Below are positions 46,637 through 58,653 of a stretch of DNA of 64,000 bases, piece by piece. Source of the stretch: Streptomyces sp. NBC_01571 (GTDB lineage: Bacteria; Actinomycetota; Actinomycetes; Streptomycetales; Streptomycetaceae). The first letter of the stretch is position 1; every line of letters starts with the position of its first letter. A program made the position numbers and the translations under genes. The stretch lies in NCBI RefSeq assembly GCF_026339875.1, contig NZ_JAPEPZ010000001.1, positions 868,001 to 932,000 on the forward strand, given 5' to 3'. The notes beneath the pieces were generated by a model. That model did no database searches, was not told where the DNA came from, and saw only the letters and a list, made by a program, of their open reading frames with translations.

Positions 46637-48010
46637 ATGAACGTCTCGGTCGTCCTGTTCACCTCGGACCTGCGTCTGCACGATCACCCGGCGCTGCGGG
46701 CGGCCCACGACGGTTCGGCCGCGCTGGTCCCCCTCTTCGTGCGCGACGACGCCGTCGCCGCGGCAGGGTTCACGGCGCCCAACCGGATGGCGTTCCTCGC
46801 GGACTGCCTGGCCGACCTCGACGCCGGACTGCGCGAGCGGGGCGGACGGCTGGTGGTGCGTTCCGGCGACGTGACCGCCGAGGTGTGCAAGGTGGTCGCC
46901 GAGGCGGAGGCCGACGAGGTGCACATGGCCGCGGGCGTCAGTGCCTTCGCGCGCCGCCGCGAGGACCGGCTGCGCACCGCACTCGAGGCCGAGGGGTGCC
47001 GGCTGCACGTCCACGACACGGTGATCACCGCACTCGCGCCGGGTGCCGTCACCCCGGCCTCCTCGGACCACTTCGCCGTCTTCACCCCGTACTTCCGGCA
47101 CTGGTCGCGGCAGTCGCTGCGCGGCGCGGTCTCCGCGCCGCGGGCGATCCGGGTGCCGGACGGTGTCGTCTCGGAGCCGGTGCCCTCCCGCACCGGCCTG
47201 TCCGGGGTGTCCGAGGGACTGGCGCGGGGCGGCGAGACGGAGGCCCGGAGGAGACTCGTCTCCTGGCTGCGGAGCGGGATCGCGTCGTACGAGGACCGGC
47301 ACGACGACCTGGCCGGCGACGCCACCTCCCGGTTCTCGCCGTACCTGCACTTCGGCTCGCTCTCCCCGGTCGAGCTGGTGCACCGGGCCCGTGGCGCGGG
47401 CGGGGCGGGCGCCGAGGCCTTCGTACGGCAGCTCGCCTGGCGGGACTTCCACCACCAGGTGCTCGCCGCGCGGCCGGACGCGGCCGTGGCCGACTACCGG
47501 ACCCGCCACGACCGCTGGCGCCCGGAGACCGAGGCGCGGGAGGACATCGTCGCGTGGAAGGACGGGCGCACCGGCTATCCGGTGATCGACGCGGCGATGC
47601 GCCAACTGCGCCACGAGGGCTGGATGCACAACCGGGGACGCCTGCTGACGGCGAGCTTCCTCACCAAGACGCTGTACGTGGACTGGCGGGTCGGGGCCCG
47701 GCACTTCCTGGACCTGCTGGTGGACGGCGATGTCGCCAACAACCAGCTCAACTGGCAGTGGATGGCAGGGACGGGCACGGACACCCGGCCCAACCGGGTC
47801 CTCAACCCGGTGCTCCAGGCCAGGCGTTACGACCCGGACGGGGTGTACGTCCGGCGGTGGGTGCCCGAACTGGAGGGGATCGCGGGCGCCGCCGTGCACG
47901 AGCCGTGGAGGCTGCGGGGCCTGGACCGCGCCGCCTACGATTACCCTGACCCCCTGGTCGAACTTCCGGACGCGCTGGCCCGCTTCAGGAACGCCCGGGG
48001 CCGTGGCTGA
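46637..48010 (+). CDS. phr: Deoxyribodipyrimidine photolyase
   Basis: This 457-residue FAD enzyme uses blue light to repair UV-induced cyclobutane pyrimidine dimers. The N-terminal antenna domain is 1-130 (VVLFTSDLRLHDHPALRAAH). The FAD domain has SRFSPYLHFGSLSP, FVRQLAWRDFHHQVL, TGYPVIDAAMRQLRHEGWMHNR and NNQLNWQWMAGTGTDTRPNRVLNP. Trp residues for the electron-transfer chain are present. ATG 46637 was chosen. It is downstream of the SDR/DUF2867 gene and near the LitR/SigK genes, consistent with light induction. Confidence 0.94.
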   Translation: MNVSVVLFTSDLRLHDHPALRAAHDGSAALVPLFVRDDAVAAAGFTAPNRMAFLADCLADLDAGLRERGGRLVVRSGDVTAEVCKVVAEAEADEVHMAAGVSAFARRREDRLRTALEAEGCRLHVHDTVITALAPGAVTPASSDHFAVFTPYFRHWSRQSLRGAVSAPRAIRVPDGVVSEPVPSRTGLSGVSEGLARGGETEARRRLVSWLRSGIASYEDRHDDLAGDATSRFSPYLHFGSLSPVELVHRARGAGGAGAEAFVRQLAWRDFHHQVLAARPDAAVADYRTRHDRWRPETEAREDIVAWKDGRTGYPVIDAAMRQLRHEGWMHNRGRLLTASFLTKTLYVDWRVGARHFLDLLVDGDVANNQLNWQWMAGTGTDTRPNRVLNPVLQARRYDPDGVYVRRWVPELEGIAGAAVHEPWRLRGLDRAAYDYPDPLVELPDALARFRNARGRG

Positions 48011-48170: not shown

Positions 48171-48893
48171 ATGCGCATTGCACGGAACGCAGGAACGCTC
48201 TTCGTGGCAGGTGCGTTGACCATGACACTCGCCGCGCTCGCGTACCCTGCCGTGATCGGTGTGCAGACCACGTCCAGCGCCCCGAACCGCGTGATCGCCA
48301 ACACTCCGACGGGCCCGTTGACCGAGGCCGACCGTGACTTCGTCGTCAAGGTGCGAGCGGCGGGACTCTGGGAGTACCCGGTCGGACAGCTGGCGCTGCA
48401 GAAGGGCACCATCCCGGCGGTCAGAACCGCCGGCGACCACCTGATCAAGGGCCACGCCGCGCTGGACGACACCGACCGCAAGGTCGCCGCCACGCTCGGC
48501 ATCACCATCCCCAACAAGCCGTCCCCGCAGCAGCAGGGTTTCGTCTCGACCCTGAGCGCGGACAGCGGCAAGCAGTTCGACACGGACTTCGCCAACATCC
48601 TGCGGCTGACCCACGGAACGATCTTCCTCACCGTCGCGAAGATCAGGTCCACCACCGAGAACTCGTTGGTGCGCCAGCTGGCCGACCAGGCCAACGACAC
48701 GGTGCTGGACCACATCACGGTGATGGAGAAGACCGGACTGGTCAACTTCGACCAGGTGTTGTTCCAGGAGACCACCCCGCCGAAGCTGCCCGCCGGAAAC
48801 GTCACGCCGCCCGCACCCGCGCCGGGCGAGCCGACCGTCGTCCTCACCCCGCCCGCGGGAAGTTCCGCGTCCCCCTCACCGACGGTGCGGTGA
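48171..48893 (+). CDS. DUF4142 secreted/periplasmic-type protein
   Basis: The protein has 240 residues with an N-terminal signal-like helix (about 8-28, TLFVAGALTMTLAALAYPAVIG) and a ferritin-like DUF4142 helical domain (TEADRDFVVKVRAAGLWEYPVGQLALQKG, VRTAGDHLIKGHAALDD). The tail is Pro-rich (from about 205). It is likely exported. Family roles are unknown; the helical bundle could bind metal or lipid. CAGGAGG precedes ATG 48171. The 160-bp upstream region has an AT-rich stretch with a GTTCG/CGAAC pair (48034-48058). Confidence 0.83.
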   Translation: MRIARNAGTLFVAGALTMTLAALAYPAVIGVQTTSSAPNRVIANTPTGPLTEADRDFVVKVRAAGLWEYPVGQLALQKGTIPAVRTAGDHLIKGHAALDDTDRKVAATLGITIPNKPSPQQQGFVSTLSADSGKQFDTDFANILRLTHGTIFLTVAKIRSTTENSLVRQLADQANDTVLDHITVMEKTGLVNFDQVLFQETTPPKLPAGNVTPPAPAPGEPTVVLTPPAGSSASPSPTVR

Positions 48894-48899
48894 ACCGGG

Positions 48900-48948
48900 A
48901 ACGTCGCCCCGGCCCGGGACCTCAGCTTCCCGGGGCCGGGGCGACGTT
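48900..48948. terminator. 16-bp stem-loop shared by the DUF4142 and litR 3' ends
   Basis: AACGTCGCCCCGGCCC (48900-48915) and GGGCCGGGGCGACGTT (48933-48948) are perfect inverted repeats with a 17-base loop. The right arm lies in the last codons of the convergent litR-like gene. It is a likely bidirectional terminator. Confidence 0.8.
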
Positions 48949-49941
48949 GTCGTAGAGGCCCATGAGGGACCCGAGGGCGTCCCGCAGTCCCGGCGGGCGG
49001 AGCATCCCGCGCAGCGGACGCCCGGCCCAGCCGGGGCCGCCCAGCACGACGGCGGGATGGTTGCGGGCTCCCTTGACACCCCATTGGGTGCCGGCCACGT
49101 GCCGGGCGAGTGGGACGTCGGCCGTCGAACGGGTCTGGGCCCACAGCACGACGGCCGTCGGGCCGAGCCGCCGTACCGCCGCGGTCAGCGCCTCGGTGGG
49201 CACGGCCGCACCGAACATCCTTGTGGGCAGGCCGAGTTCGGCGAGTCCGGCGTGCAGCGCCTGCAACGGCAGGCTGTGCTCCTCGCCGGGGACGCACGCC
49301 AGCACCACGGGCCCCGGGCCGGTGGCCGGAGCGTCGGGCCGGGCCGGCTCGGTGGCCCGGTGGAGCGTCCGGGAGATATGCCAGGACAGCAGGTGCTCCA
49401 CCTCCACGTAACGGTCACCGGAGGACTCCCACTTGCGTCCCACCGCGTGCAGGGTGGGCACCATCACCTCGTCCCAGGCGACGACCAGGCCGTGCCGTGC
49501 CACGAGCGAGGCCAGCTGGTCGTCCATCGCGGGCGCGTCGAGGCGCACGGCGGCGCGCGCGAGGCCCCTGCACTCCTGGCGGACGTCACCGAGCGGCAGC
49601 GCGCCGGCCGCCTGTGAACGCCGCCGGCCGGCCTCCGCGGACGGGTCGGGGCCGGAAGGGATCCGCTCGACGCCCTTCCGCGCGGTCCTGGCCGCCTCGG
49701 CGGGCGGCACCCCCGCGGAGGTCAGACGGCACATCTCCTCGAGCATCGCCACGTCCTGCGGCGTCCAGCGGCGGTGCCGCCCGTCGGAGCGGACCGCGGG
49801 ACCCACTCCGTACCGGCGGTCCCAGGAACGCAGGGTGGTGGGCGACACTCCCAGCCGGCGGGCCAGCGCACCCGTGGTGACGCCCGTCTCGGCGGGCCGT
49901 GCGGCCACTTCTGACGGCCCTGTCGGTCGGTCCTCGCCCAT
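48922..49941 (-). CDS. MerR-family photoreceptor-type regulator with B12-binding domain (LitR/CarH-like)
   Basis: This 339-residue protein has a MerR helix-turn-helix at about 20-75 (TGALARRLGVSPTTLRSWDRRYG). A helical B12-binding-2 cap follows (LASLVARHGLVVAWDEVMVPTLHAVGRKWESSGDRYVEVEHLLS, with the Trp and Glu-His that line adenosylcobalamin). Then comes a cobalamin-binding Rossmann domain with GEEHSLPLQALHAGLAELG, whose His is the expected Co ligand. In LitR/CarH, light breaks the Co-C bond and releases the repressor. ATG 49941 was chosen. It is next to the sigma, photolyase and lipid genes, its probable targets. Confidence 0.85.
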   Translation of the reverse strand: MGEDRPTGPSEVAARPAETGVTTGALARRLGVSPTTLRSWDRRYGVGPAVRSDGRHRRWTPQDVAMLEEMCRLTSAGVPPAEAARTARKGVERIPSGPDPSAEAGRRRSQAAGALPLGDVRQECRGLARAAVRLDAPAMDDQLASLVARHGLVVAWDEVMVPTLHAVGRKWESSGDRYVEVEHLLSWHISRTLHRATEPARPDAPATGPGPVVLACVPGEEHSLPLQALHAGLAELGLPTRMFGAAVPTEALTAAVRRLGPTAVVLWAQTRSTADVPLARHVAGTQWGVKGARNHPAVVLGGPGWAGRPLRGMLRPPGLRDALGSLMGLYDNVAPAPGS

Positions 49942-50069
49942 GCGGCGACTATACGACGCAGAAACGATGCAAGTTGTCCCGGATGTCCCGCGGTTCACAC
50001 GATGGAGCCTCGCGGCGCGCCGTACGGAAGGCGCCCCGTGACCCCCGTCCGAACCGAGGAGCCGTGGTC

Positions 50070-50399
50070 ATGACCGCAGATCCGATCACCACGGGGCGTG
50101 CGCCGGCCGTACACACCCGCCGCACCGAGCCGGTCGCGGCCCCCGGATCCCCGCCGGGTCCCACCGGCGACACGCGCGGCCGTCCCGAGGCCGCCGCGCC
50201 CGATCGCGTCTCCGTCCGGCACGAGCTCACCGGACCACCCGCACCGCAGCGTCGGGTGCCGCGTCTCGCGTCGTACGAGGACTCCACCCGGACACAGCTC
50301 GCGCGGCGCACCGGCCGGCCGCCGGGGACCGCCGGCGGCCACTGCCGACGCTGCCTGCCCCGACGGCGACGCCGGCTGCCCACGCGGGCCGACGGGTGA
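50070..50399 (+). CDS. Possible small Arg/Pro-rich protein
   Basis: ATG 50070, with GAGGAGCC upstream, opens a 109-codon frame ending at 50399. It is rich in Arg, Pro and Thr, with CRRCLP near the end and no recognisable domain. It lies in the same direction as the sigma operon. It could be real or chance in high-GC DNA; the ribosome-site spacing is its main support. Confidence 0.35.
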   Translation: MTADPITTGRAPAVHTRRTEPVAAPGSPPGPTGDTRGRPEAAAPDRVSVRHELTGPPAPQRRVPRLASYEDSTRTQLARRTGRPPGTAGGHCRRCLPRRRRRLPTRADG

Positions 50400-50491
50400 G
50401 GACCGGCGGAGCCCGCCCGGCACCGGGCCCGGCCGGCCCGCGTCCCGCGCACGCGCCCGGCCACCGCACCCGGGATTCTCCCGCCGTGGGC

Positions 50492-50519
50492 CAATCCGCG
50501 GCCGGACCTGCTCCGGATC
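50492..50519 (+). promoter_or_regulatory. SigK-type promoter of the sigma/anti-sigma operon
   Basis: CAATCC (50492-50497), 16 bp, CGGATC (50514-50519). The spacing and both elements match the site upstream of the lipid operon and resemble the mycobacterial SigK consensus CCATCC-N16/17-CCGAAT. It lies 38 bp before the sigma start, fitting autoregulation. Confidence 0.62.
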
Positions 50520-50556
50520 AGTCCCGTACCGTTCGCCCTGCTTGGAGGACCACCCT

Positions 50557-51141
50557 GTGAAGGAAGCCGTGGAAATCGGGAGAGACCCGGCGGCGGGACC
50601 CGGTCTGCCGGACCTGATGGCCGACGTCGCCCGGGGCGACCAGGAGGCTTTCGCCGCGGTCTACGACGTCGTGGCGGGGCCGGTGCTCGGCATCGTCCGC
50701 AGGGTGCTGCGCGACCTGGCCCAGTCGGAGGAGGTGGCGCAGGAGGTACTGGTCGAGGTGTGGCGGACCGCCGCCCGCTACCGGCCCGAGCGGGGGTCGG
50801 TGATGAACTGGGTGCTCACCCTCGCCCACCAGCGGGCCGTCGACCGGGTGCGCTCGGCCGAGGCCTCGGCGGCGCGCGAGCACAAGGCGGCCCTCCTCGA
50901 CCGGACGCCCGAGTTCGACGAGGTGACCGAGCAGGTCGAGGCGCGGCTGGAACGGGAGCAGGTGCGGCGCTGTCTGCGGACGCTGACGGAACTCCAGCGC
51001 CAGTCCGTGACCCTCGCCTACTACCGGGGCCTGACCTACCGGGAGGTGGCGGAGCTGCTGACGCTTCCGCTCGGCACGGTCAAGACCCGGCTGCGCGACG
51101 GTCTCATCCGTCTCCGCGACTGCCTGGGGGTCACCGCATGA
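50557..51141 (+). CDS. sigK: ECF sigma factor of SigK type
   Basis: Of 194 residues, region 2 (ARGDQEAFAAVYDVVAGPVLGIVRRVLRDLAQSEEVAQEVLVEVWRTAARYRPERGS) and region 4 (LQRQSVTLAYYRGLTYREVAELLTLPLGTVKTRLRDGL) are complete. This is the ECF19 (SigK) pattern. GTG 50557 has GGAGG eight bases upstream. The next gene overlaps it by ATGA and encodes an RskA-type anti-sigma factor. In M. tuberculosis sigK-rskA sits with the same four lipid genes seen here. A LitS-like role beside LitR is also likely. Confidence 0.85.
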   Translation: MKEAVEIGRDPAAGPGLPDLMADVARGDQEAFAAVYDVVAGPVLGIVRRVLRDLAQSEEVAQEVLVEVWRTAARYRPERGSVMNWVLTLAHQRAVDRVRSAEASAAREHKAALLDRTPEFDEVTEQVEARLEREQVRRCLRTLTELQRQSVTLAYYRGLTYREVAELLTLPLGTVKTRLRDGLIRLRDCLGVTA

Positions 51142-51899
51142 CCACGTCCGACCTGCACACCCTGACGGGCGCGTACGCGCTGTACGCCCTCGACGCGGAC
51201 GAGCGCGGCCGGTTCGAGCGGCACGCCGCCGACTGCGAGGCCTGCGTCCAGGAGGTTCGTGAGCTGACCGCCACGGCCGCGCGGCTGGGCCTCGCCGAGA
51301 GCGCCGTCGCGGCCCCCGAGCTCAAGAACCGGGTCATGCGGCAGATCACCACGGTCCGGCAGGAAGCGCCCCTGCCGACGCCTTCCCCGCCCCCAGCACC
51401 AGATCTCCGCCGCGTACGCCGTACCCGCGGCCTGTCGCGCTGGGCCCTGGCCGCCTGTGTGGCCGCCGCGGCGGCGTTCGGCGGCACGGCGGTGTGGCAG
51501 CACGAACGGGCGCGGGACGCACAGCATCAGGCGCGGGACGCCGAGCGCCGGACCGCCGACCTGACCGCGGTGCTGGCCGCCCCGGACGCGAAGAGCCGTA
51601 CCGCGAGACTGGCGGGCGGGGCCGGCGGCACGGTGGTCGTCTCCGCGAGCCGTGACAAGGCCGTCTTCATCTCCTCGGAGATGGCGAAGCCGCCGAGCGG
51701 CAAGGTCTACCAGCTGTGGTTCGACGACGCGGGCACCATGCGCTCCGCCGGTCTGATGGACCCGCATCGGACCAGCGAGGCGGTGCTGCTGGACGGGAAC
51801 GTGGCCAAGGCCTCGGGCATGGGCATCACCGTGGAACCGGCCGGCGGCTCGGCCCGGCCGACCTCGGCGCCTCTCGCGCTGCTGGACCTCCCCGCCTGA
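51138..51899 (+). CDS. rskA: RskA-type anti-sigma factor
   Basis: The protein has 253 residues. A cytoplasmic zinc-anti-sigma domain (HAADCEACVQE, H-x3-C-x2-C) spans about 5-60. One transmembrane helix (LAACVAAAAAFGGTAVW) is at about 102-120. The extracytoplasmic RskA domain carries KVYQLWFDDAGTMRSAGLM and TVEPAGGSARPTSAPL. It holds SigK inactive until regulated proteolysis. ATG 51138 overlaps the sigma stop by 4 bp. The 198 bp that follow are rich in palindromic GGCC blocks (such as 51901-51918), probably terminators for this operon and the opposing one. Confidence 0.88.
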   Translation: MTTSDLHTLTGAYALYALDADERGRFERHAADCEACVQEVRELTATAARLGLAESAVAAPELKNRVMRQITTVRQEAPLPTPSPPPAPDLRRVRRTRGLSRWALAACVAAAAAFGGTAVWQHERARDAQHQARDAERRTADLTAVLAAPDAKSRTARLAGGAGGTVVVSASRDKAVFISSEMAKPPSGKVYQLWFDDAGTMRSAGLMDPHRTSEAVLLDGNVAKASGMGITVEPAGGSARPTSAPLALLDLPA

Positions 51900-52097
51900 C
51901 CGCGGCCGGCCGGCCGCGCCGTGCCCCCTCGTCGGGACCGGGCCGGCCGGTCCTCTTCCGCGCCAGGCCGGGCGGGAGCGGCCGATCCTCTCCTTCCGGA
52001 CCGGAGCGGACCGGCCCGTCCCTCTCCCGGGACGAGCCGGTCCTCCCGGCGTCGTCACCGGTCCTCCCCCGGCGGGCGACGCCCGCACGCGGCCCCG

Positions 52098-52904
52098 TCA
52101 GCCGCGCGACTTCGGCGGCAACGGAAAGAAGCCGCTGGTCCTCGCGGAGTACTCGGCGAACCCCGCTCGCCCCGCCAAGTGCTTCTCCAGCAGCGCCTTC
52201 CCGCTGCCGTTGATCAGCAGCCAGCTCATCAGCAGCGGTGAGAGCACCGACACCGCGGCCGCCGCGCCCGAGTCGCAGGCGAGCAGGAACAGGCCCCACC
52301 ACACGCAGAAGTCGCCGAAGTAGTTGGGGTGCCGGGTCCAGCTCCACAGGCCCCGGTCCATGACCCGGCCGCGGTTGGCGGGATCGGCCTTGAACCGGGC
52401 CAGTTGGGCGTCGCCCACCGCCTCGAAGAACAGTCCGACCGCCCACAGCGCGGCGCCGGCGAGGGTGAGTCCCGTCAGGCCCGCGGAGACGTACTGCGCG
52501 GCCTGGACGGGCAGCGACACCAGCCAGACCAGGGCTCCCTGCAGGAGGTAGATCATGCGCAGGGCGTACAGGTGGCGACGGCCGGGCGCCTTGGCGAGCA
52601 TCGCCTCGTATCTCGGATCCTCGCCGTGGCCACGGCCCCGCCGGGCGATGTGCAGGGCCAGCCGCAGCCCCCACACCGAGGTCAGTACGGTCACCAGGAT
52701 CCGTCGCCCCTCGTCGCCCTCGCCGGCGGAGGCCAGGAAGGACACCACGGCCACGGCGGTGAACCCGATCCCCCAGGCGACGTCCACGATCCGGTGGACG
52801 CCCTTGCGTACGGCGACAGCGAAGGTGACGAGCATGACGGCGAACGCCGCGGCCGCCGCGAGACCGAGGTTCTGGGCGAAGCCTGCCCAGGGGAAGCCGC
52901 TCAT
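52098..52904 (-). CDS. DUF1295 membrane protein
   Basis: This 268-residue membrane protein has about seven hydrophobic segments and the steroid-5-alpha-reductase-like C-terminus (GLWSWTRHPNYFGDFCVWWGLFLLA, then FAEYSARTSGFFP) of DUF1295. It may reduce or modify lipid double bonds; this is unproven in the group. ATG 52904 overlaps the preceding gene stop by ATGA. It is the last gene of the lipid operon, as Rv0446c is in the mycobacterial sigK locus. Confidence 0.87.
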   Translation of the reverse strand: MSGFPWAGFAQNLGLAAAAAFAVMLVTFAVAVRKGVHRIVDVAWGIGFTAVAVVSFLASAGEGDEGRRILVTVLTSVWGLRLALHIARRGRGHGEDPRYEAMLAKAPGRRHLYALRMIYLLQGALVWLVSLPVQAAQYVSAGLTGLTLAGAALWAVGLFFEAVGDAQLARFKADPANRGRVMDRGLWSWTRHPNYFGDFCVWWGLFLLACDSGAAAAVSVLSPLLMSWLLINGSGKALLEKHLAGRAGFAEYSARTSGFFPLPPKSRG

Positions 52905-54211
52905 CGCTCGTCCGCCCCCGCGTACCAGTCCCCCGGCACGGCGGGCATGCCGCTGCTGCCTCCGGGAGCGGGCCGCACGCTCAGGATCTGGTCGACGCCC
53001 ATGCGCCGTTCCTGGAAGGCGAGCGCCCCGCCGACCAGGTACAGCCGCCACACCCTGGCCGTCTCCGCCCCCACGAGCCGGACGAAGTCGTCCCAGCGCT
53101 CCTCCAGCGTGCGGTGCCAGGCCGCGACCGTACGGACGTAGTGCTCCCGCAGCGACTCCACGGACCGCACCTCCAGCCCCGCGGCCTCCAGCAGGCCGAC
53201 GGTGTCACCCAGCGGTCTCATGTGCATGTCCGGTGCGATGTACGCCTCGATGAACGCGCCGCCGCCCGGTGCCACCGAGCCCCGCGACATCTGCTGGACG
53301 AGGACGCGCCCCCGTGGGCGGACGAAGCGGTGGAGGGCGGCGGCGAACGCCGGGTACTCGGTGTCCCCCACGTGTTCGCCCATCTCGATCGCGGTGACGG
53401 CCTCGTACGCGCCGCCGGCGATGTCCCGGTAGTCCTGGCAGACCACGTCGACCTGGTGTTCGAGGCCGCGCTCGCGCACCTGATCCCGTACGTACGCGGC
53501 CTGTTCCCGGGCCAGGGTGACCGCGGTGACCTGGGCCTTGTACCGCTCCGCCGCGTACAGCGTGAGGGAGCCCCAGCCGCAGCCGATGTCCAGCAGCCGG
53601 GCACCCGGGACGAGGCCGAGCTTGCGGCAGATCAGCTCCAGCTTGGCACGCTGGGCGTCGGCGGGACCGAAGTCCGGTTCCTCGCCGGTCCAGTAGCCGC
53701 ACGAGTAGGCCATGGTCTCGTCGAGGAGCAGGCGGTAGAACGCGTTCGACAGGTCGTAGTGGTGGCTGATGGCGGCGCGGTCCCTGGATCTGCTGTGCAG
53801 GCCGCCGCGGAGTCGTGCCTGCGAGGCGGGGGTCGGGGGCCGCGGACCCACGGCCCCGAGGCGCAACGCGGTGGCGGCGGCGCGGGCCCGGTCGGCGGGG
53901 GTGAGCCGGGGTGCGTGCAGACTGCGCTCCCGAACCGCACTCCACATGGCGCTCAGGCCCGCCGCCAAGTCGCCCTCGACATCGATCTCCCCGGTGACGT
54001 AGGCCTGGGCCAGGCCCAGTTCGCCGGGCTGCCAGAGCAGCCGTCGCAGGGCGCGGCGCGTGCGGACGACGACCACGGGGGCGTCCCGGGGGCCGGTCTC
54101 GCTGCCGTCCCACGCGCGCAACCGCAGCGGCAGGGGGCCGCCGAGGGCGTCCTCGGCCAGTGCGGCGAGCCGGTGGGCGGCACCGGGGCGGGCGGTGGTC
54201 ACGGTGATCAC
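52901..54211 (-). CDS. Cyclopropane-fatty-acyl-phospholipid synthase family methyltransferase (second copy)
   Basis: This 436-residue SAM methyltransferase acts on membrane lipid acyl chains. It has AISHHYDLSNAFYRLLLDETMAYSCGYW, LDIGCGWGSLTLYAAERY (SAM loop), AIEMGEHVGDTEYPAF and FIEAYIAPDMHMRPLGD. The conserved EMGEHVG holds the Glu that supports methyl transfer. GTG 54211 overlaps the previous stop (GTGA). A paralogue is encoded just upstream; the two differ at the active-site loop (EMGEHVG here, EMVEAVG there), so they probably do different steps or chains. Confidence 0.88.
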   Translation of the reverse strand: MITVTTARPGAAHRLAALAEDALGGPLPLRLRAWDGSETGPRDAPVVVVRTRRALRRLLWQPGELGLAQAYVTGEIDVEGDLAAGLSAMWSAVRERSLHAPRLTPADRARAAATALRLGAVGPRPPTPASQARLRGGLHSRSRDRAAISHHYDLSNAFYRLLLDETMAYSCGYWTGEEPDFGPADAQRAKLELICRKLGLVPGARLLDIGCGWGSLTLYAAERYKAQVTAVTLAREQAAYVRDQVRERGLEHQVDVVCQDYRDIAGGAYEAVTAIEMGEHVGDTEYPAFAAALHRFVRPRGRVLVQQMSRGSVAPGGGAFIEAYIAPDMHMRPLGDTVGLLEAAGLEVRSVESLREHYVRTVAAWHRTLEERWDDFVRLVGAETARVWRLYLVGGALAFQERRMGVDQILSVRPAPGGSSGMPAVPGDWYAGADER

Positions 54212-55476
54212 GGGGTGGGGTCCTCCTTCGTGAACAGGTACTGCTGGACGTCGAGGTACCCGGCGCGGAATCCCGCTTCGGAGTAGGCCAGGTAGAAGGT
54301 CCACATCCGGCGGAAGGTCGCGTCGAAACCGAGCCCTTCGACCTCGTCGGCGCGCTCGGTGAAGCGCTCGCGCCACAGCCGCAGGGTCTCCGCGTAGTGC
54401 GCGCCGAAGGGGTCCCTGCGGGTGGTCCGCAACCGGGTGTGCTCACGGGTCACCTGTTCCACGGCCTCCACCGAGGGCAGCAGGCCGCCGGGGAAGACGT
54501 ACTTCTGGATCCAGGTGAAGGTGTCGCGGCTCGCCAGCATCCGGTCGTGCGGCATGGTGATCGCCTGCAGCGCGGCGCGACCGCCGGGGGCGAGCCGCGC
54601 GTCGAGCGTCGCGAAGTAGACCGGCCAGAACTCCGCCCCCACCGCCTCCACCATCTCGACGCTCACCACGGCGTCGTACGTGCCCTCGGCCTCCCGGTAG
54701 TCGCACAGCCGGACGGAGACCCGGTCGGCCACCCCCGCCTCGCGCACCCGCCGGCGGGCCAGGTCCCGCTGCTCGCGGGAGAGGGTGAGCGAGGTGACTC
54801 GGGCACCGCGGGCAGCGGCGCGTATCGCCAACTCGCCCCATCCGGTACCGATTTCGAGCAGCCGGGTGCCGGGCCCGACCTCGGCGAGGTCCAGCAGCCG
54901 GTCGATCTTGCGGTGTTGGGCGGCGGCCAGCAGGGGCCACGAGGCGGGAAAGCCGCGGAAGAGGGCCGCCGAGTAGCTGAGGGTCTCGTCGAGGAAGAGG
55001 GCGAACAGGTCGTTGGAGAGGTCGTAGTGCCGGCTGATGTTGTCGCGGGCGCCGGTGAGTGTGTTGCGCTGCGCTTCCGGGCGGCGGGGCGCCCACAGGC
55101 CGCGCAGCCGCTGGAGCGGTTCCGGGATCAGCCGCGCCGCGTTGTCGGCGAGCACGGTGAGCGCGGCGACCAGGTCCGGCGCGTCCCATTCGCCCGCCAT
55201 GTAGGACTCGCCGAAGCCGACCAGTCCGTGGGTGCCGATACGGCGGTGGAAGGCCTCCGGGTCGTGGATCTCGATCACCGGGCCGCCGGTACCGAGACGG
55301 CTTCCGTCGGCGAACCGTGCCTGCAGGGGCAGCCGTCGCAGTGCCCTGCTCAGCACGGCGCGGGTGACGGCGGTCCGGGTGCGCGAGGCCTCCGGCGGCG
55401 TCACCACGTCCGGCCAGCGGGCGGGATCCCCGTCCCGGCGCTGCGCGGTGGCGGAGCGGGGCTCGGCTGTCCTCAT
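54208..55476 (-). CDS. Cyclopropane-fatty-acid-synthase family methyltransferase (UfaA1/UfaM-like)
   Basis: This 422-residue protein has NISRHYDLSNDLFALFLDETLSYSAALF, RLLEIGTGWGELAIRAAARG (SAM loop), VSVEMVEAVGAEFWP and YVFPGGLLPS. The EMVEAVG loop and GGLLPS are typical of enzymes linked to DUF1365 genes, such as mycobacterial UfaA1 and the methyltransferase of furan-fatty-acid synthesis. They methylate unsaturated acyl chains. ATG 55476 overlaps the DUF1365 stop (ATGA). The first 35 residues are unstructured. Confidence 0.88.
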   Translation of the reverse strand: MRTAEPRSATAQRRDGDPARWPDVVTPPEASRTRTAVTRAVLSRALRRLPLQARFADGSRLGTGGPVIEIHDPEAFHRRIGTHGLVGFGESYMAGEWDAPDLVAALTVLADNAARLIPEPLQRLRGLWAPRRPEAQRNTLTGARDNISRHYDLSNDLFALFLDETLSYSAALFRGFPASWPLLAAAQHRKIDRLLDLAEVGPGTRLLEIGTGWGELAIRAAARGARVTSLTLSREQRDLARRRVREAGVADRVSVRLCDYREAEGTYDAVVSVEMVEAVGAEFWPVYFATLDARLAPGGRAALQAITMPHDRMLASRDTFTWIQKYVFPGGLLPSVEAVEQVTREHTRLRTTRRDPFGAHYAETLRLWRERFTERADEVEGLGFDATFRRMWTFYLAYSEAGFRAGYLDVQQYLFTKEDPTP

Positions 55477-56357
55477 GTGTCACTCTCCTGGCTTCGGTGG
55501 TGTGAACGGGGCTGGACGGGCAGTCCCCGCAGGTAGAGGCGGATGCCGTGGACGCGGATGGCCACCGAGACGGCGGCGGTGGACCACGGGTGGCGCAGCG
55601 CGGCACGCAGCAGCGTCGCGACGGTCGCCGCACGGCGGGTCCCGCGCACGGTCGCGGTGAAGGGCCGGGTGCCCGCGCGCTCCAGGCGCACCATGAGGTC
55701 GAGACGGTCGTCCGGGAGGGGAAGCCGCATGCGGTACTCGCCGTCCACGGGGAAGAAGGGCGAGACGTAGAACCGCTTCTCCGTGCGGTAGAGCCGCCTC
55801 CCGAACCGGTGGGTCTCCCGCTCGGGCCGTCGGTCCTCCCGCTCGGGCGACTCCGCCCGGCGGCTCGCCGGCTCCGACGACCGGGCGGGCTCCGAAGGCT
55901 CGTCGGCCGCGACGGCGCGGTGGTCGTCCCGCTGCTCCCGCGTCGTCCCGGCGCCGTCCGGGAGCAGCAGATAGCAGTGCCGTTCGCCGTACGTGTTGTG
56001 CACCTCCGCGACCACGCAGCGCGGTGCGCCGCCGGGGTCGTGGCACCAGTAGAGGGTGAGCGGGTTGAAGACGTGACCGAGGACCCGCGCGTGGGTGAGC
56101 ATCGTGACCGGGCCGCCGCGCAGATCGATGCCGTGCCCGGCGAGGAAGCGGTCGAGCCCGGCGCGGATGGTCGGCTGGTCCCCGTCGAAGTGGTCACGGG
56201 GGTCGAAGCCGGCCAACGGGCGCAGCGGAAGGGGCAGTCGGGGCGGGTGGTCGGGGTCCGTCAGCCACATGTACGTGCGGTGGCGCAGCACGTACCGGGT
56301 CGGCGCGGTCCGTACGTGCGAGACCGTGCAGGGGTAGAGCGCGGGGGTACCGGTCAC
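55473..56357 (-). CDS. DUF1365 protein with low-complexity insertion
   Basis: This 294-residue DUF1365 protein has ALYPCTVSHVRTAPTRYVLRHRTYMWL, FNPLTLYWCHDPGG, VVAEVHNTYGERHCYLL and KRFYVSPFFPVDGEYRMRLP. The family always sits with CFA-type methyltransferases and a flavin oxidoreductase, but its activity is unknown. About 45 charged, Ser/Glu/Arg-rich residues (from AGTTREQRDD to PERETHRF) interrupt the core and look recently inserted. GTG 56357 overlaps the FAD gene stop (GTGA). Confidence 0.87.
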   Translation of the reverse strand: MTGTPALYPCTVSHVRTAPTRYVLRHRTYMWLTDPDHPPRLPLPLRPLAGFDPRDHFDGDQPTIRAGLDRFLAGHGIDLRGGPVTMLTHARVLGHVFNPLTLYWCHDPGGAPRCVVAEVHNTYGERHCYLLLPDGAGTTREQRDDHRAVAADEPSEPARSSEPASRRAESPEREDRRPERETHRFGRRLYRTEKRFYVSPFFPVDGEYRMRLPLPDDRLDLMVRLERAGTRPFTATVRGTRRAATVATLLRAALRHPWSTAAVSVAIRVHGIRLYLRGLPVQPRSHHRSQESDT

Positions 56358-57739
56358 CACGTCACCCCGAGGGCCGCGGCGGCCGCCGCGCCGGAGCGGC
56401 AGCCGTCCTCGTGGAATCCCCAGCCGTGGTAGGCGCCGGCGTACGCGGTCACGGGGCTGTTCAGTTCCGGGAGCCGGGTCTGCGCGGCGACGGACTCCCG
56501 CGTGTAGACGGGGTGTTCGTACACCATGCGGGCCAGGACACGGTCCGGGTCGACGCGGTCCTCGCCGCCGAGGGTGACCACGTAGTGATCGGGTGCGTCG
56601 AGGCGCTGGAGCCGGTTCATGTCGTAGCTGACGCGGACCCGGTCCGCGCCGGCGTCGCACGACGGCATCAGGTAGTTCCAGGAGGCCCTCGCCGCCCGGG
56701 CGCGCGGCAACAGCGCGGTGTCGGTGTGCAGGAGGGTGGTGTTGCGGGAGTAGCGGAAAGCGCCGAGCACCTCTCGCTCCCGCTCGGTGGGGTCGGCCAG
56801 CAGCCTCAGGGCCTGGTCGGGATGGACCGCGATCACCACCGAGTCGTACGACGCGGTGGTGCCGTCCGCCGTGGTGACGTCCACGGCGTCTGGATGCCGT
56901 CGCACGGCGCGGACGGGGGCGGAGGTGTGCACGGCGTCGAGGCGTTTGGCGACACGGTCGACGTAGGAGCGGGAGCCGCCGCTCACCGTGCGCCAGACCG
57001 GGGAGTCGCTCACCGAGAGCATGCCGTGGTGCTCCAGGAAGCGGAACAGGTGGGCGGCCGGGTAGCGGCCGGCCGTGACGGCGTCGCAGGACCAGACCGC
57101 CGATACCAGCGGGGTCGCGAAGTGCTGCACGAAGTACGGCGAGAAGCGTTCCCGGGTCAGGAACTCGCCCAGCGTCAGGCTCTCTTCGCCGTCCGCGGCC
57201 AGCAGTCGCCGGGCCGCGCGGTGGAAGGCCGGCACTTCGGTGAGCATCCGGAGGTAGGAGCCGCGCAGGGCGCTTCGCGGGCGGGCGAACAGGCCTGCCG
57301 GACCGCGCGCGCCCGCGTACTCGAGGCCGCAGCCCTCGCAGCGCACCGACATGCTCATCTCCGACTCCTGGGTGGCGACGCCGAGTTCGTCGAACAGCCT
57401 CAGGAGGTTCGGGTAGGTACGGCGGTTGTGCACGATGAAGCCGGAGTCGACGCGGTGCAGTCTGCCGTCGGAGGCGGCGAGGTCATGGGTGTGCGCGTGG
57501 CCGCCGAGCCGGTCGTCCGCCTCGTACAGGGCCACCGGTCGTGCGCGGCCCAGCACGTGGGCGGCGGTGAGTCCCGCCACGCCCCCGCCGATGACGGCCG
57601 TCCGCCGCGCCGGCCCGTGCCGTCCGCGCTGTCCGGGCTGTCCGCGCTGTCCGGGCTGTCCGCGCTGTCCGCGCTGTCCGCGGTCGGCGATCTCCTGCTG
57701 GTCCGCACGCGAGGCGTCCTCTGACGCTTGCCGCACCAT
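56354..57739 (-). CDS. FAD-dependent (amine-oxidase-type) oxidoreductase, first gene of lipid operon
   Basis: The protein has 461 residues. The dinucleotide loop AVIGGGVAGLTAAHVLG is at 48-64, YEADDRLGGHAHTH follows, then VDSGFIVHNRRTYPN and a C-terminal FAD-contact segment (YAGAYHGWGFHEDGCRSGAAAA). The fold is that of NAD(P)/FAD amine oxidases found with DUF1365 (Rv0449c-like, or the oxygenation enzyme of furan-fatty-acid synthesis). The first 45 residues hold a Gly-Gln-Arg/Pro triplet repeat. ATG 57739 has GGGAGGAGAC upstream. A SigK-type promoter lies 50 bp before it. Confidence 0.88.
   Translation of the reverse strand: MVRQASEDASRADQQEIADRGQRGQRGQPGQRGQPGQRGRHGPARRTAVIGGGVAGLTAAHVLGRARPVALYEADDRLGGHAHTHDLAASDGRLHRVDSGFIVHNRRTYPNLLRLFDELGVATQESEMSMSVRCEGCGLEYAGARGPAGLFARPRSALRGSYLRMLTEVPAFHRAARRLLAADGEESLTLGEFLTRERFSPYFVQHFATPLVSAVWSCDAVTAGRYPAAHLFRFLEHHGMLSVSDSPVWRTVSGGSRSYVDRVAKRLDAVHTSAPVRAVRRHPDAVDVTTADGTTASYDSVVIAVHPDQALRLLADPTEREREVLGAFRYSRNTTLLHTDTALLPRARAARASWNYLMPSCDAGADRVRVSYDMNRLQRLDAPDHYVVTLGGEDRVDPDRVLARMVYEHPVYTRESVAAQTRLPELNSPVTAYAGAYHGWGFHEDGCRSGAAAAAALGVTW
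57622..57684. repeat. Seven tandem 9-bp repeats in the FAD gene N-terminus
   Basis: GTCCGCGCT and GTCCGGGCT alternate through seven units, encoding Gly-Gln-Arg or Gly-Gln-Pro triplets at residues 21-39 on the minus strand. It is a short collagen-like, slippage-prone tract. Confidence 0.88.
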
Positions 57740-57788
57740 GTCTCCTCCCACCCGGCTCGCCGGTTTCGGCTTCAGAGCTCTCGGCCCT

Positions 57789-57816
57789 ATTCCGAAGCTG
57801 CGGCCGTGATGGATTG
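57789..57816 (-). promoter_or_regulatory. SigK-type promoter of the lipid operon
   Basis: On the minus strand CAATCC (57816-57811), 16 bp, CGGAAT (57794-57789). It is the same motif and spacing as upstream of the sigma gene, and close to the mycobacterial SigK consensus. It predicts a leader of about 40 nt before ATG 57739. Confidence 0.65.
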
Positions 57817-58182
57817 GCCGGAAGGCGCCCTTCCTCCGATCGGGTGAGAGGCCGGTGCCGACACGGGCGATATGCCTGGTCGGTGAGAAGGGGGCGAGCA
57901 CGGAACGGCCGTACGGAGCGCGCCCGTGCGGCTACCGTGGGCCATGGCCGTGCGGACTCGTCGTCGGGACTCTCCCGGCGCGGCACGGAGATCTTGCGGG
58001 GCGGCGAGGCGGAACCGGCCCGTGGATCAGCGAGGCGGGCCCGGACCGCGGACCGGCGGAGCGGAACCGGACCGCGGCAGCGGCAGCGGCGGAGCGGAAC
58101 CGGATGGCGGGAGCGGCGGGGCGGGACCGGGACGCGGGAGCCGCGGGACGGAACCGGGACGCGGGGGTCCGGGTTCGGTCCG
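57817..58182. other. Low-complexity GC-rich intergenic region
   Basis: There is no supported gene. From about 58025 to 58175 the DNA is made of imperfect repeats such as GGCGGAGCGGAACCGG, GGCGGGACCGGGACGCGG and GGAACCGGGACGCGG. Several long frames on both strands here are repeat artefacts. Confidence 0.5.
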
Positions 58183-58653
58183 TCATCCGGCCCCGGGACG
58201 CGGCCGCTTGAAGCCGAGCAGCGTGCGGTAGCGCTCGCGCGTCGCGAACTCCCGCAGAGGCCAGATCACCGGCCGTCCCACCTCGGCGCAGAGATGAAGG
58301 ACCCGGCCCTCGCCCACGACGACCCCGACATGGGCACCCCACGCCTCGTCGCCGTGGTTGAAGAGGGCGAGGTCCTGCGGCCGGGACTCCCGTACCCGTT
58401 CGGTGAGTACGGTGTCGGCCCACAGCTCGCTCGAACGCCAGGGGGGCAGACGCGGGCCGAGGTGGCGCAGCACTTCGTAGGCGAAGAACTGACAGTTGGC
58501 GCCGTCGGCGAGGCCCGGCCTCTCGGCGACGGACCGCGAGCCGGGAAAGCGCCGGCCCACGTACGGAGTGGACCAGATCAGCTCGGGCAGCCGCGCTGTC
58601 AGCTCACTCTCACTCGGTTCCCGCACCCGCGACTCCGTCCGTGTACCGGGCAA
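58183..58653 (-). CDS. Small NlpC/P60-like hydrolase
   Basis: This 156-residue protein has DGANCQFFAYEVLRHLGP (a Cys followed by a helix, as in the cysteine nucleophile of NlpC/P60 and CHAP folds) and DEAWGAHVGVVVGEGRVLHLCAEVGRPVIWPL (His-x-G-V strand and a following His). It probably is a small amidase or hydrolase; the substrate is unknown. There is no signal peptide. The start is taken as TTG 58653, with GAGGGAA just before it; a later start is possible. Confidence 0.65.
   Translation of the reverse strand: MPGTRTESRVREPSESELTARLPELIWSTPYVGRRFPGSRSVAERPGLADGANCQFFAYEVLRHLGPRLPPWRSSELWADTVLTERVRESRPQDLALFNHGDEAWGAHVGVVVGEGRVLHLCAEVGRPVIWPLREFATRERYRTLLGFKRPRPGAG

Follow-up and report, generated by a model that had tools for sequence, protein, structure and literature searches.

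Conserved promoter sites of the extracytoplasmic function (ECF) sigma factor SigK have already been published for Actinobacteria; the same account gives Mycobacterium tuberculosis sigK as autoregulated via the promoter of Rv0449c and describes the signal of SigK as still unknown (PMC7509140). In Rhodobacter sphaeroides and Rhodopseudomonas palustris, a methyl-furan fatty acid is reported to be made by the methylase UfaM, the flavin desaturase UfaD and the DUF1365 protein UfaO, the last being the O2-inserting enzyme of the furan route; the R. palustris genes for UfaD, UfaO and UfaM are RPA2571-2570-2569 (PMC7380195). Here, we describe a locus of Streptomyces sp. NBC_01571 in which a sigK-rskA pair and a neighbouring lipid operon are preceded by the same putative promoter. 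The window, i.e. the whole stretch of DNA analysed, comprises 64,000 nucleotides (contig NZ_JAPEPZ010000001.1, positions 868,001 to 932,000), and positions given without a locus name refer to it. The name "SigK" is shared by another sigma factor in Streptomyces coelicolor.

The element CAATCC-N16-CGGA is present at 50492-50517 on the plus strand and at 57816-57791 on the minus strand, with exactly 16 bases between its two halves in both cases. A sequence-only reading of this DNA had placed two such elements with the same spacing before sigK and before the flavin adenine dinucleotide (FAD) gene; both were found there, and they are the sole exact copies in the entire window, for which shuffling gave a mean of 0.06 matches and never two or more (0 of 100 shuffles). 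The FAD gene heads a five-gene minus-strand operon encoding the FAD protein, a DUF1365 protein, two methyltransferases of the cyclopropane fatty acid (CFA) type and a DUF1295 protein. The features are as follows.

50492..50518, plus strand: predicted SigK-type promoter of sigK-rskA, CAATCC-N16-CGGAT (motif match and conservation in relatives)
50557..51141, plus strand: sigK (SigK1), ECF sigma factor of 194 amino acids, start GTG at 50557 (SigK model score, alignment with 4nqw)
51138..51899, plus strand: rskA, anti-sigma factor of 253 amino acids, most hydrophobic stretch at residues 102-120 (RskA_C match)
52098..52907, minus strand: DUF1295 membrane protein, start codon not settled (domain match)
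52901..54238, minus strand: CFA-type methyltransferase 2 (CMAS), start codon not settled (domain match)
54208..55476, minus strand: CFA-type methyltransferase 1 (CMAS), UfaM-like by place (domain match)
55473..56357, minus strand: DUF1365 protein, UfaO-like; its GTG start at 56357 overlaps the FAD stop codon region (domain)
56354..57739, minus strand: FAD-dependent oxidoreductase of the flavin amine-oxidase type, start ATG at 57739 (UfaD-like by domain and place)
57790..57816, minus strand: predicted SigK-type promoter of the lipid operon, CAATCC-N16-CGGAA (motif match and conservation in relatives)

The sigma factor scored 287.8 bits against the NCBIfam SigK model and passes its cut-off of 226. 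Directly behind sigK, and overlapping its end, starts rskA, whose product matched RskA_C with 108 bits (cut-off 29.4) and RskA_N weakly; these were its only matches, and the cupin domain of the ChrR type, as in RpoE-ChrR systems (ECF11), was not found in it. In an alignment with M. tuberculosis SigK (4nqw), Cys139 and Cys189 of SigK1 coincide with two cysteines, which we take to be the disulphide cysteines 133 and 183; both are kept in 98 of 98 grouped sequences (groups formed without L032, L048, L056, L073 and L087). The FAD protein carries a repeat-rich N-terminal extension.

Conservation of the two sites was assessed in 80 SigK loci of Streptomyces (the best of 523 relatives), with CAATCC-N16/17-CG[GA]A located at most 250 nucleotides upstream as the test and the FAD distance taken from the aligned start. 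Such a site precedes sigK in 63 of the 80 loci (shuffle mean 0.17). A FAD gene was located no more than 10 kb from sigK in 45 loci, and 39 of these carry a site before it (shuffle mean 0.11). On the opposite strand, sites were seen before sigK in none of the 80 loci and before the FAD gene in 24 of the 45, the latter probably being the own site of a divergent gene. The genome-wide search that the sequence-only reading had suggested came out differently: CAATCC-N15-17-CGGAW gave 16 matches in 11.5 Mb where base composition predicts 15.7, so that the motif alone does not define a regulon, and listing the regulon in this way was rejected. The first reading frames behind matches L003-L009 and L011-L015 encoded none of the gene kinds known from other SigK sites, and match L016 (C2:337693) lies upstream of a hypothetical gene. 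The stricter CCAATCC-N15-17-CGRAT had six matches (3.9 expected), four of which fall at the three sigK loci of this genome. A scan of 49800-58200 for consensus promoters and terminators found none. The case for a shared promoter hence weighs on conservation, not on rarity. Chance-level numbers across the genome are what one would expect if the two copies in the window were accidental, but conservation at the same two places refutes this explanation in practice and we consider it extremely improbable.

In the wider scan, CCAATCC-N15-17-CG[GA]A[ATC] was matched 156 times in the 80 loci (1.51 Mb), namely 57 times before sigK, 35 times before the FAD gene, once before cfa1 and 63 times elsewhere. 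Many of these other 63 sites lie upstream of genes for an Oxidored_molyb protein or a fasciclin lipoprotein (for either kind, Pfam confirmed one example), and a GTG often follows about 10 bases behind the -10 element of the Oxidored_molyb targets. As judged by eye, a divergent SigK-type site also stands before an apparent further ECF sigma gene at L041:13642, L050:19395 and L078:12535, which would amount to a sigma cascade.

The -10 elements fall into two classes, CGAA and CGGA. A phylum sample of 60 regions from 296 genomes searched (45 outside the genus and 15 inside) was made up of 58 of 61 matches over the cut-off, three from the window's own genome being left out, and two matches below it. 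In 23 of the 45 regions outside the genus there were sites at most 1500 nucleotides upstream of sigK, 25 in total, of which 24 read CGAA; the single CGGA site (L135) is 1.4 kb away from sigK in a locus that has CGAAT at -193. The 15 regions from the same genus comprised four with CGGA, four with CGAA and seven without a site. The sequence-only reading had likened both elements to the mycobacterial SigK consensus CCATCC-N16/17-CCGAAT. This stands for the -35 element; the mycobacterial-type -10 CGAAT was not found at the target promoters of the window, which read CGGAT and CGGAA, and CGGA is a derived variant of the CGAA used elsewhere. Since the -10 element varies within the SigK family (ECF19), we regard it as characteristic of a subgroup, not as a criterion for the family.

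Within a locus, the class is shared between promoters. Among the 45 loci with the FAD gene, 36 yielded both a sigK and a FAD site, and the two agreed in class in 35; the sole exception, L020, has CGGA at the standard position in another extraction. With molybdoenzyme and fasciclin promoters recognised via short peptide patterns, agreement was 31 of 33 for sigK and molybdoenzyme, 7 of 7 for sigK and fasciclin and 20 of 20 for FAD and molybdoenzyme. This joint shift of several separate promoters is good evidence that one sigma lineage would read them all. In the SigK tree, for which L020 was entered by hand as CGGA, 41 of 42 CGGA rows fall within one clade of 44 rows (Shimodaira-Hasegawa-like approximate likelihood ratio test, SH-aLRT, 95) that also holds one row without class and two CGAA rows; the -10 labels require three changes on the tree. 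The CGGA clade tends to be distinct from the two CGAA groups at positions such as 46, 54, 75, 76, 84, 101 and 102, although the groups overlap at most of these. In region 2, 40 of 41 CGGA-type sequences have Arg76, as do 13 of 36 of the CGAA type and none of 21 of the paralogue SigK3 described below; for Asn84 the counts are 41 of 41, 16 of 36 and 0 of 21, respectively. Because there was only a single -10 switch, we regard these residues as candidate leads for -10 preference and not as determinants.

Taken together, it is very likely, judging from sequence comparison, that SigK switches on its own gene and the neighbouring lipid operon through the shared promoter, and the earlier prediction that the sigma factor controls itself and the lipid genes is well supported on this basis alone (conserved sites in 63/80 and 39/45 loci, class agreement in 35/36). 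We infer that SigK itself reads both sites. In the proposed mechanism, SigK would be held by the membrane anti-sigma factor RskA and be freed under stress; freed SigK would start transcription at CAATCC-N16-CGGAW, the site at 50492 raising sigK-rskA in a positive feedback and the site at 57816 driving the FAD-DUF1365-CFA-CFA-DUF1295 operon.

Several observations speak against this reading or limit its reach. No site was found in the tested interval upstream of sigK in 17 of the 80 loci and upstream of the FAD gene in 6 of the 45, and 22 of the 45 loci outside the genus lack any site up to 1500 nucleotides upstream of sigK. L056 and L073 differ in class between their sigK and molybdoenzyme sites, and L073 and L087 are the CGAA rows inside the CGGA clade. 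The tree contains one independent pair for sigK and FAD and two for sigK and molybdoenzyme, the molybdoenzyme site being unchanged in both. The change from CGAA to CGGA is essentially one switch; the covariation is no statistical proof, and the pairs test is without power. Finally, the genome encodes three SigK-type sigma factors: SigK2 (C1:5558441) is 78% and SigK3 (C1:2766166) 66% identical to SigK1. A fasciclin gene precedes the second sigK in the SigK2 cluster, which has a CGGAT-type site with N17, and SigK1 and SigK2 both belong to the CGGA clade. As a CGGA-type site is also present at SigK2, the two may share targets. The main reader of the lipid operon could even be a different sigma factor of this type, SigK2 in the first place, or both might read it. 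The operon, however, adjoins sigK1, 45 of 80 relatives likewise have a FAD gene no more than 10 kb from sigK, and SigK2 has a cluster of its own, so we consider this alternative unlikely. A CGAAT-type site at L107:7146 beside the SigK2 cluster is an exception to the class rule. In the same cluster (L107:7184-8159), a molybdoenzyme-like frame has shrunk to 93 codons, and its SigK-type promoter now precedes the fasciclin gene.

Returning to SigK1 as reader of the CGGA sites, its -10 class is associated with the third paralogue. SigK3 is divergent from a DUF4331 gene preceded by CCAATCC-N16-CGAAT. Of 38 CGGA-type genomes, 30 were found to encode a protein of the SigK3 type (at least 77% identity), compared with none of the 37 CGAA-type genomes (Fisher p 8e-14, shared ancestry being ignored). 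This search covered 78 of the 80 genomes (without L049 and L076), from which L032 and L048 (no class) and L056 (conflicting) were subtracted to give 75. SigK3 was scored as absent from L083 (a fragment, residues 1-113), L090 (74%) and L025 (71%) and as present in L071 (81%, residues 17-174); L073, with its disagreeing sites, is among the 37 CGAA-type genomes. Twenty SigK3 loci, from 19 of the 30 CGGA-type genomes with SigK3 and from the genome of L032 (L195, no class), contained 26 sites, all of them CGAA, in 17 loci and no site in three. SigK types with different -10 sites therefore coexist in one cell. We give an even chance to the idea that the CGGA variant insulates the SigK1 regulon from a co-resident SigK3 with CGAA sites, which fits as the simplest adaptive reading of the co-occurrence. 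That a clear SigK3 is absent from 8 of the 38 CGGA-type genomes counts against it and, together with the essentially single event in one clade, would be expected if the change were neutral drift in one lineage and the SigK3 link reflected shared ancestry instead of selection. Drift does not readily explain that the new class is common to the promoters of several separate genes and that a CGAA-type SigK occurs together with SigK3 in none of 37 genomes; we hold it to be nearly, though not quite, an even prospect.

As to the output of the operon, the FAD, DUF1365 and CFA proteins of the window have the same domains and gene order as UfaD, UfaO and UfaM. It is moderately probable, from this resemblance, that the five genes form a furan-fatty-acid operon, whose product would be a methylated furan fatty acid in the membrane. 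The principal alternative is that cyclopropane or 10-methyl fatty acids of the tuberculostearic type are formed and that the FAD enzyme reduces a methylene intermediate. Two methyltransferases of the CMAS type next to a flavoenzyme are compatible with such a route, and UfaA1 (Rv0447c) is reported to take part in tuberculostearic acid synthesis. We know of no place for DUF1365 in the 10-methyl or cyclopropane route. DUF1365 is the domain of UfaO, and the order FAD-DUF1365-CFA is that of RPA2571-2570-2569 as reported for R. palustris, the window enzymes being matched by domain and order only (PMC7380195). We thus regard the alternative as somewhat unlikely and prefer the furan product.

The FAD protein of the window is 41.8-45.5% identical to homologues encoded on proteobacterial plasmids (among 50 listed of 139 records). 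On a Burkholderia anthina plasmid typed as conjugative, a furan-type gene set (L180:3660-9263) comprises FAD, DUF1365, CFA, a further methyltransferase and DUF1295, with genes for an ECF sigma factor and an RskA_C anti-sigma factor as neighbours. Its CFA protein encoded behind DUF1365 shares 43.6% identity over 342 residues with CFA-type methyltransferase 1 of the window. Three copies of GCATCC-N16-CGTAT occur there within 17 kb, before the sigma gene, DUF1295 and the FAD gene, the third -10 base differing once more. In the open-licence literature searched, we found neither a link of SigK-RskA with furan genes in Actinobacteria nor a paper in which any two of Rv0449c, Rv0447c and furan appear together.

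Upstream of sigK, the window contains the following genes:

46652..48010, plus strand: DNA photolyase (Pfam)
48171..48893, plus strand: DUF4142 protein (Pfam)
48922..49998, minus strand: LitR/CarH-like MerR regulator with B12-binding domains, possible start ATG at 49941 (domains, alignment with TtCarH)
50070..50399, plus strand: degenerate remnant of a LitS-like ECF sigma factor, 109 codons, region 2 missing, no Pfam match (frame comparison with relatives)

The sequence-only reading had equated the gene set with the M. tuberculosis sigK neighbourhood. The operon does contain two CFA-type genes as read there, but the set was incomplete, as it left out the LitR-type regulator, the broken LitS-like sigma gene and the photolyase. 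The regulator combines MerR and B12-binding domains, and its W, EH pair and lower-ligand His align with those of TtCarH, where we take these residues to be the ones that matter. With 57 bits it is far from the cut-off of 400 of the NCBIfam CarH equivalog, and we call it LitR-like and not CarH. The LitS-like frame between litR and sigK is open in all seven relatives examined, and the DUF4142 gene lies beside litR in five of the seven relatives having litR there. Contig C2 of the window's genome (L109) encodes a 69% identical LitS-like protein and a second LitR-like protein.

In 12 of the 80 Streptomyces loci the photolyase gene follows rskA on the same strand at a distance of 31-136 nucleotides, and in 10 further loci, seven of them with LitR, it is located elsewhere in the examined stretch. 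At L056:10001-11981 the photolyase is directly behind sigK and no rskA match was found, leaving a SigK without its usual anti-sigma gene. Upstream of the photolyase in the window there is no exact match to CAATCC-N16-CGGA. The photolyase behind sigK-rskA in 12 of 80 loci and the adjoining LitR-type regulator here suggest photo-oxidative stress. Related systems point in the same direction. The litS promoter of S. coelicolor is reported to be turned on by light-activated LitR (PMC12705666). Furan-fatty-acid genes are given as core targets of a singlet-oxygen sigma factor (PMC6852236), which is also stated to activate the photolyase gene phrA (PMC7074977). That a SigK-like pair is connected with singlet oxygen has already been published: in Rhodobacter capsulatus, a SigK-RskA-like pair is induced by singlet oxygen (log2 3.7 and 3.4) together with phrB (PMC7074977). 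Light induction is described for mpk83/mpk70 of Mycobacterium kansasii (PMC9861118), and in Nesterenkonia RskA is lowered by ultraviolet B radiation and a role of SigK was suggested by the authors (PMC8965627). No paper joining photolyase, SigK, singlet oxygen and Streptomyces turned up in the open-licence literature searched.

Other data are less favourable to a light-related signal. Among the 60 phylum loci, photolyase was near sigK in three and LitR in two, all of the same genus (L123 apparently represents the genome of L019). R. capsulatus is stated to be without a homologue of RSP_1090/1091 (PMC7074977). In M. kansasii, dipZ, with its putative SigK site, is described as not light-induced, the effect on mpk83/mpk70 is small, and the list of 14 light-induced genes in that report makes no mention of the sigK locus (PMC9861118). 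On balance, we slightly favour photo-oxidative stress as the signal, with LitR giving the light input in this clade.

Combining all parts, we tentatively propose, as a possibility to which we give distinctly less than an even chance, that SigK-RskA is an actinobacterial photo-oxidative stress switch in which SigK would be freed by light or singlet oxygen. Its release would lead to the formation of furan fatty acids, scavengers in the membrane with a possible feedback on RskA, and in many Streptomyces also to that of photolyase; the one-clade co-shift from CGAA to CGGA would have separated this regulon from a SigK paralogue in the same cell that still reads CGAA. If this is true, the mycobacterial SigK signal would be of the same, photo-oxidative kind. 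The gene set names concrete candidates, photo-oxidative stress as signal and furan fatty acid as product, both testable in Streptomyces, and the CGAA/CGGA pair offers a natural case of sigma paralogues in the same cell with sites one -10 base apart.

Comparison with known systems places the locus as follows. It shares with the SigK-RskA regulon of M. tuberculosis and other Actinobacteria a sigma factor over the SigK cut-off, an RskA partner, both cysteines, fasciclin (MPT83-type) genes as further targets, the -35 element CAATCC/CCATCC and the FAD-DUF1365-CFA-DUF1295 genes, a set that also stands beside sigK in L121 and L127. It differs from the M. tuberculosis system in the -10 element (CGGA, not CGAA), in a SigK-type promoter of sigK itself in place of the Rv0449c promoter, in a molybdoenzyme target (in Streptomyces loci), in the nearby LitR, LitS-like and photolyase genes and in the number of three SigK-type genes. 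With RpoE-ChrR (ECF11) of R. sphaeroides it has in common genes of the UfaM, UfaD and UfaO types and a photolyase under an ECF sigma/anti-sigma pair; the anti-sigma factor is zinc/cupin ChrR there and of the RskA type here, and sigma subfamily and promoter are different. For the R. capsulatus rpoE-chrR pair, compared by description only, its authors report a closer relationship to SigK (34%) and RskA (25%) of M. tuberculosis than to RpoE-ChrR of R. sphaeroides (PMC7074977); given the lack of an RSP_1090/1091 homologue, this pair is, unlike the pair in the window, without linked furan genes. In the S. coelicolor LitR-LitS system, too, an ECF sigma gene adjoins the gene of a LitR-type B12 regulator (PMC12705666), whereas in the window the LitS-like gene is broken and the neighbour is SigK-RskA with the lipid operon. 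The light-inducible set of Pseudomonas LitR (PplR/PmlR) also includes a LitR-type regulator, photolyase, FAD oxidoreductase and UfaM genes, but a SigK-RskA pair is not part of that description (PMC9758184). Against this background, the Streptomyces form of SigK is best seen as a variant with an altered -10 element, a probable furan-fatty-acid output and a light-linked neighbourhood.

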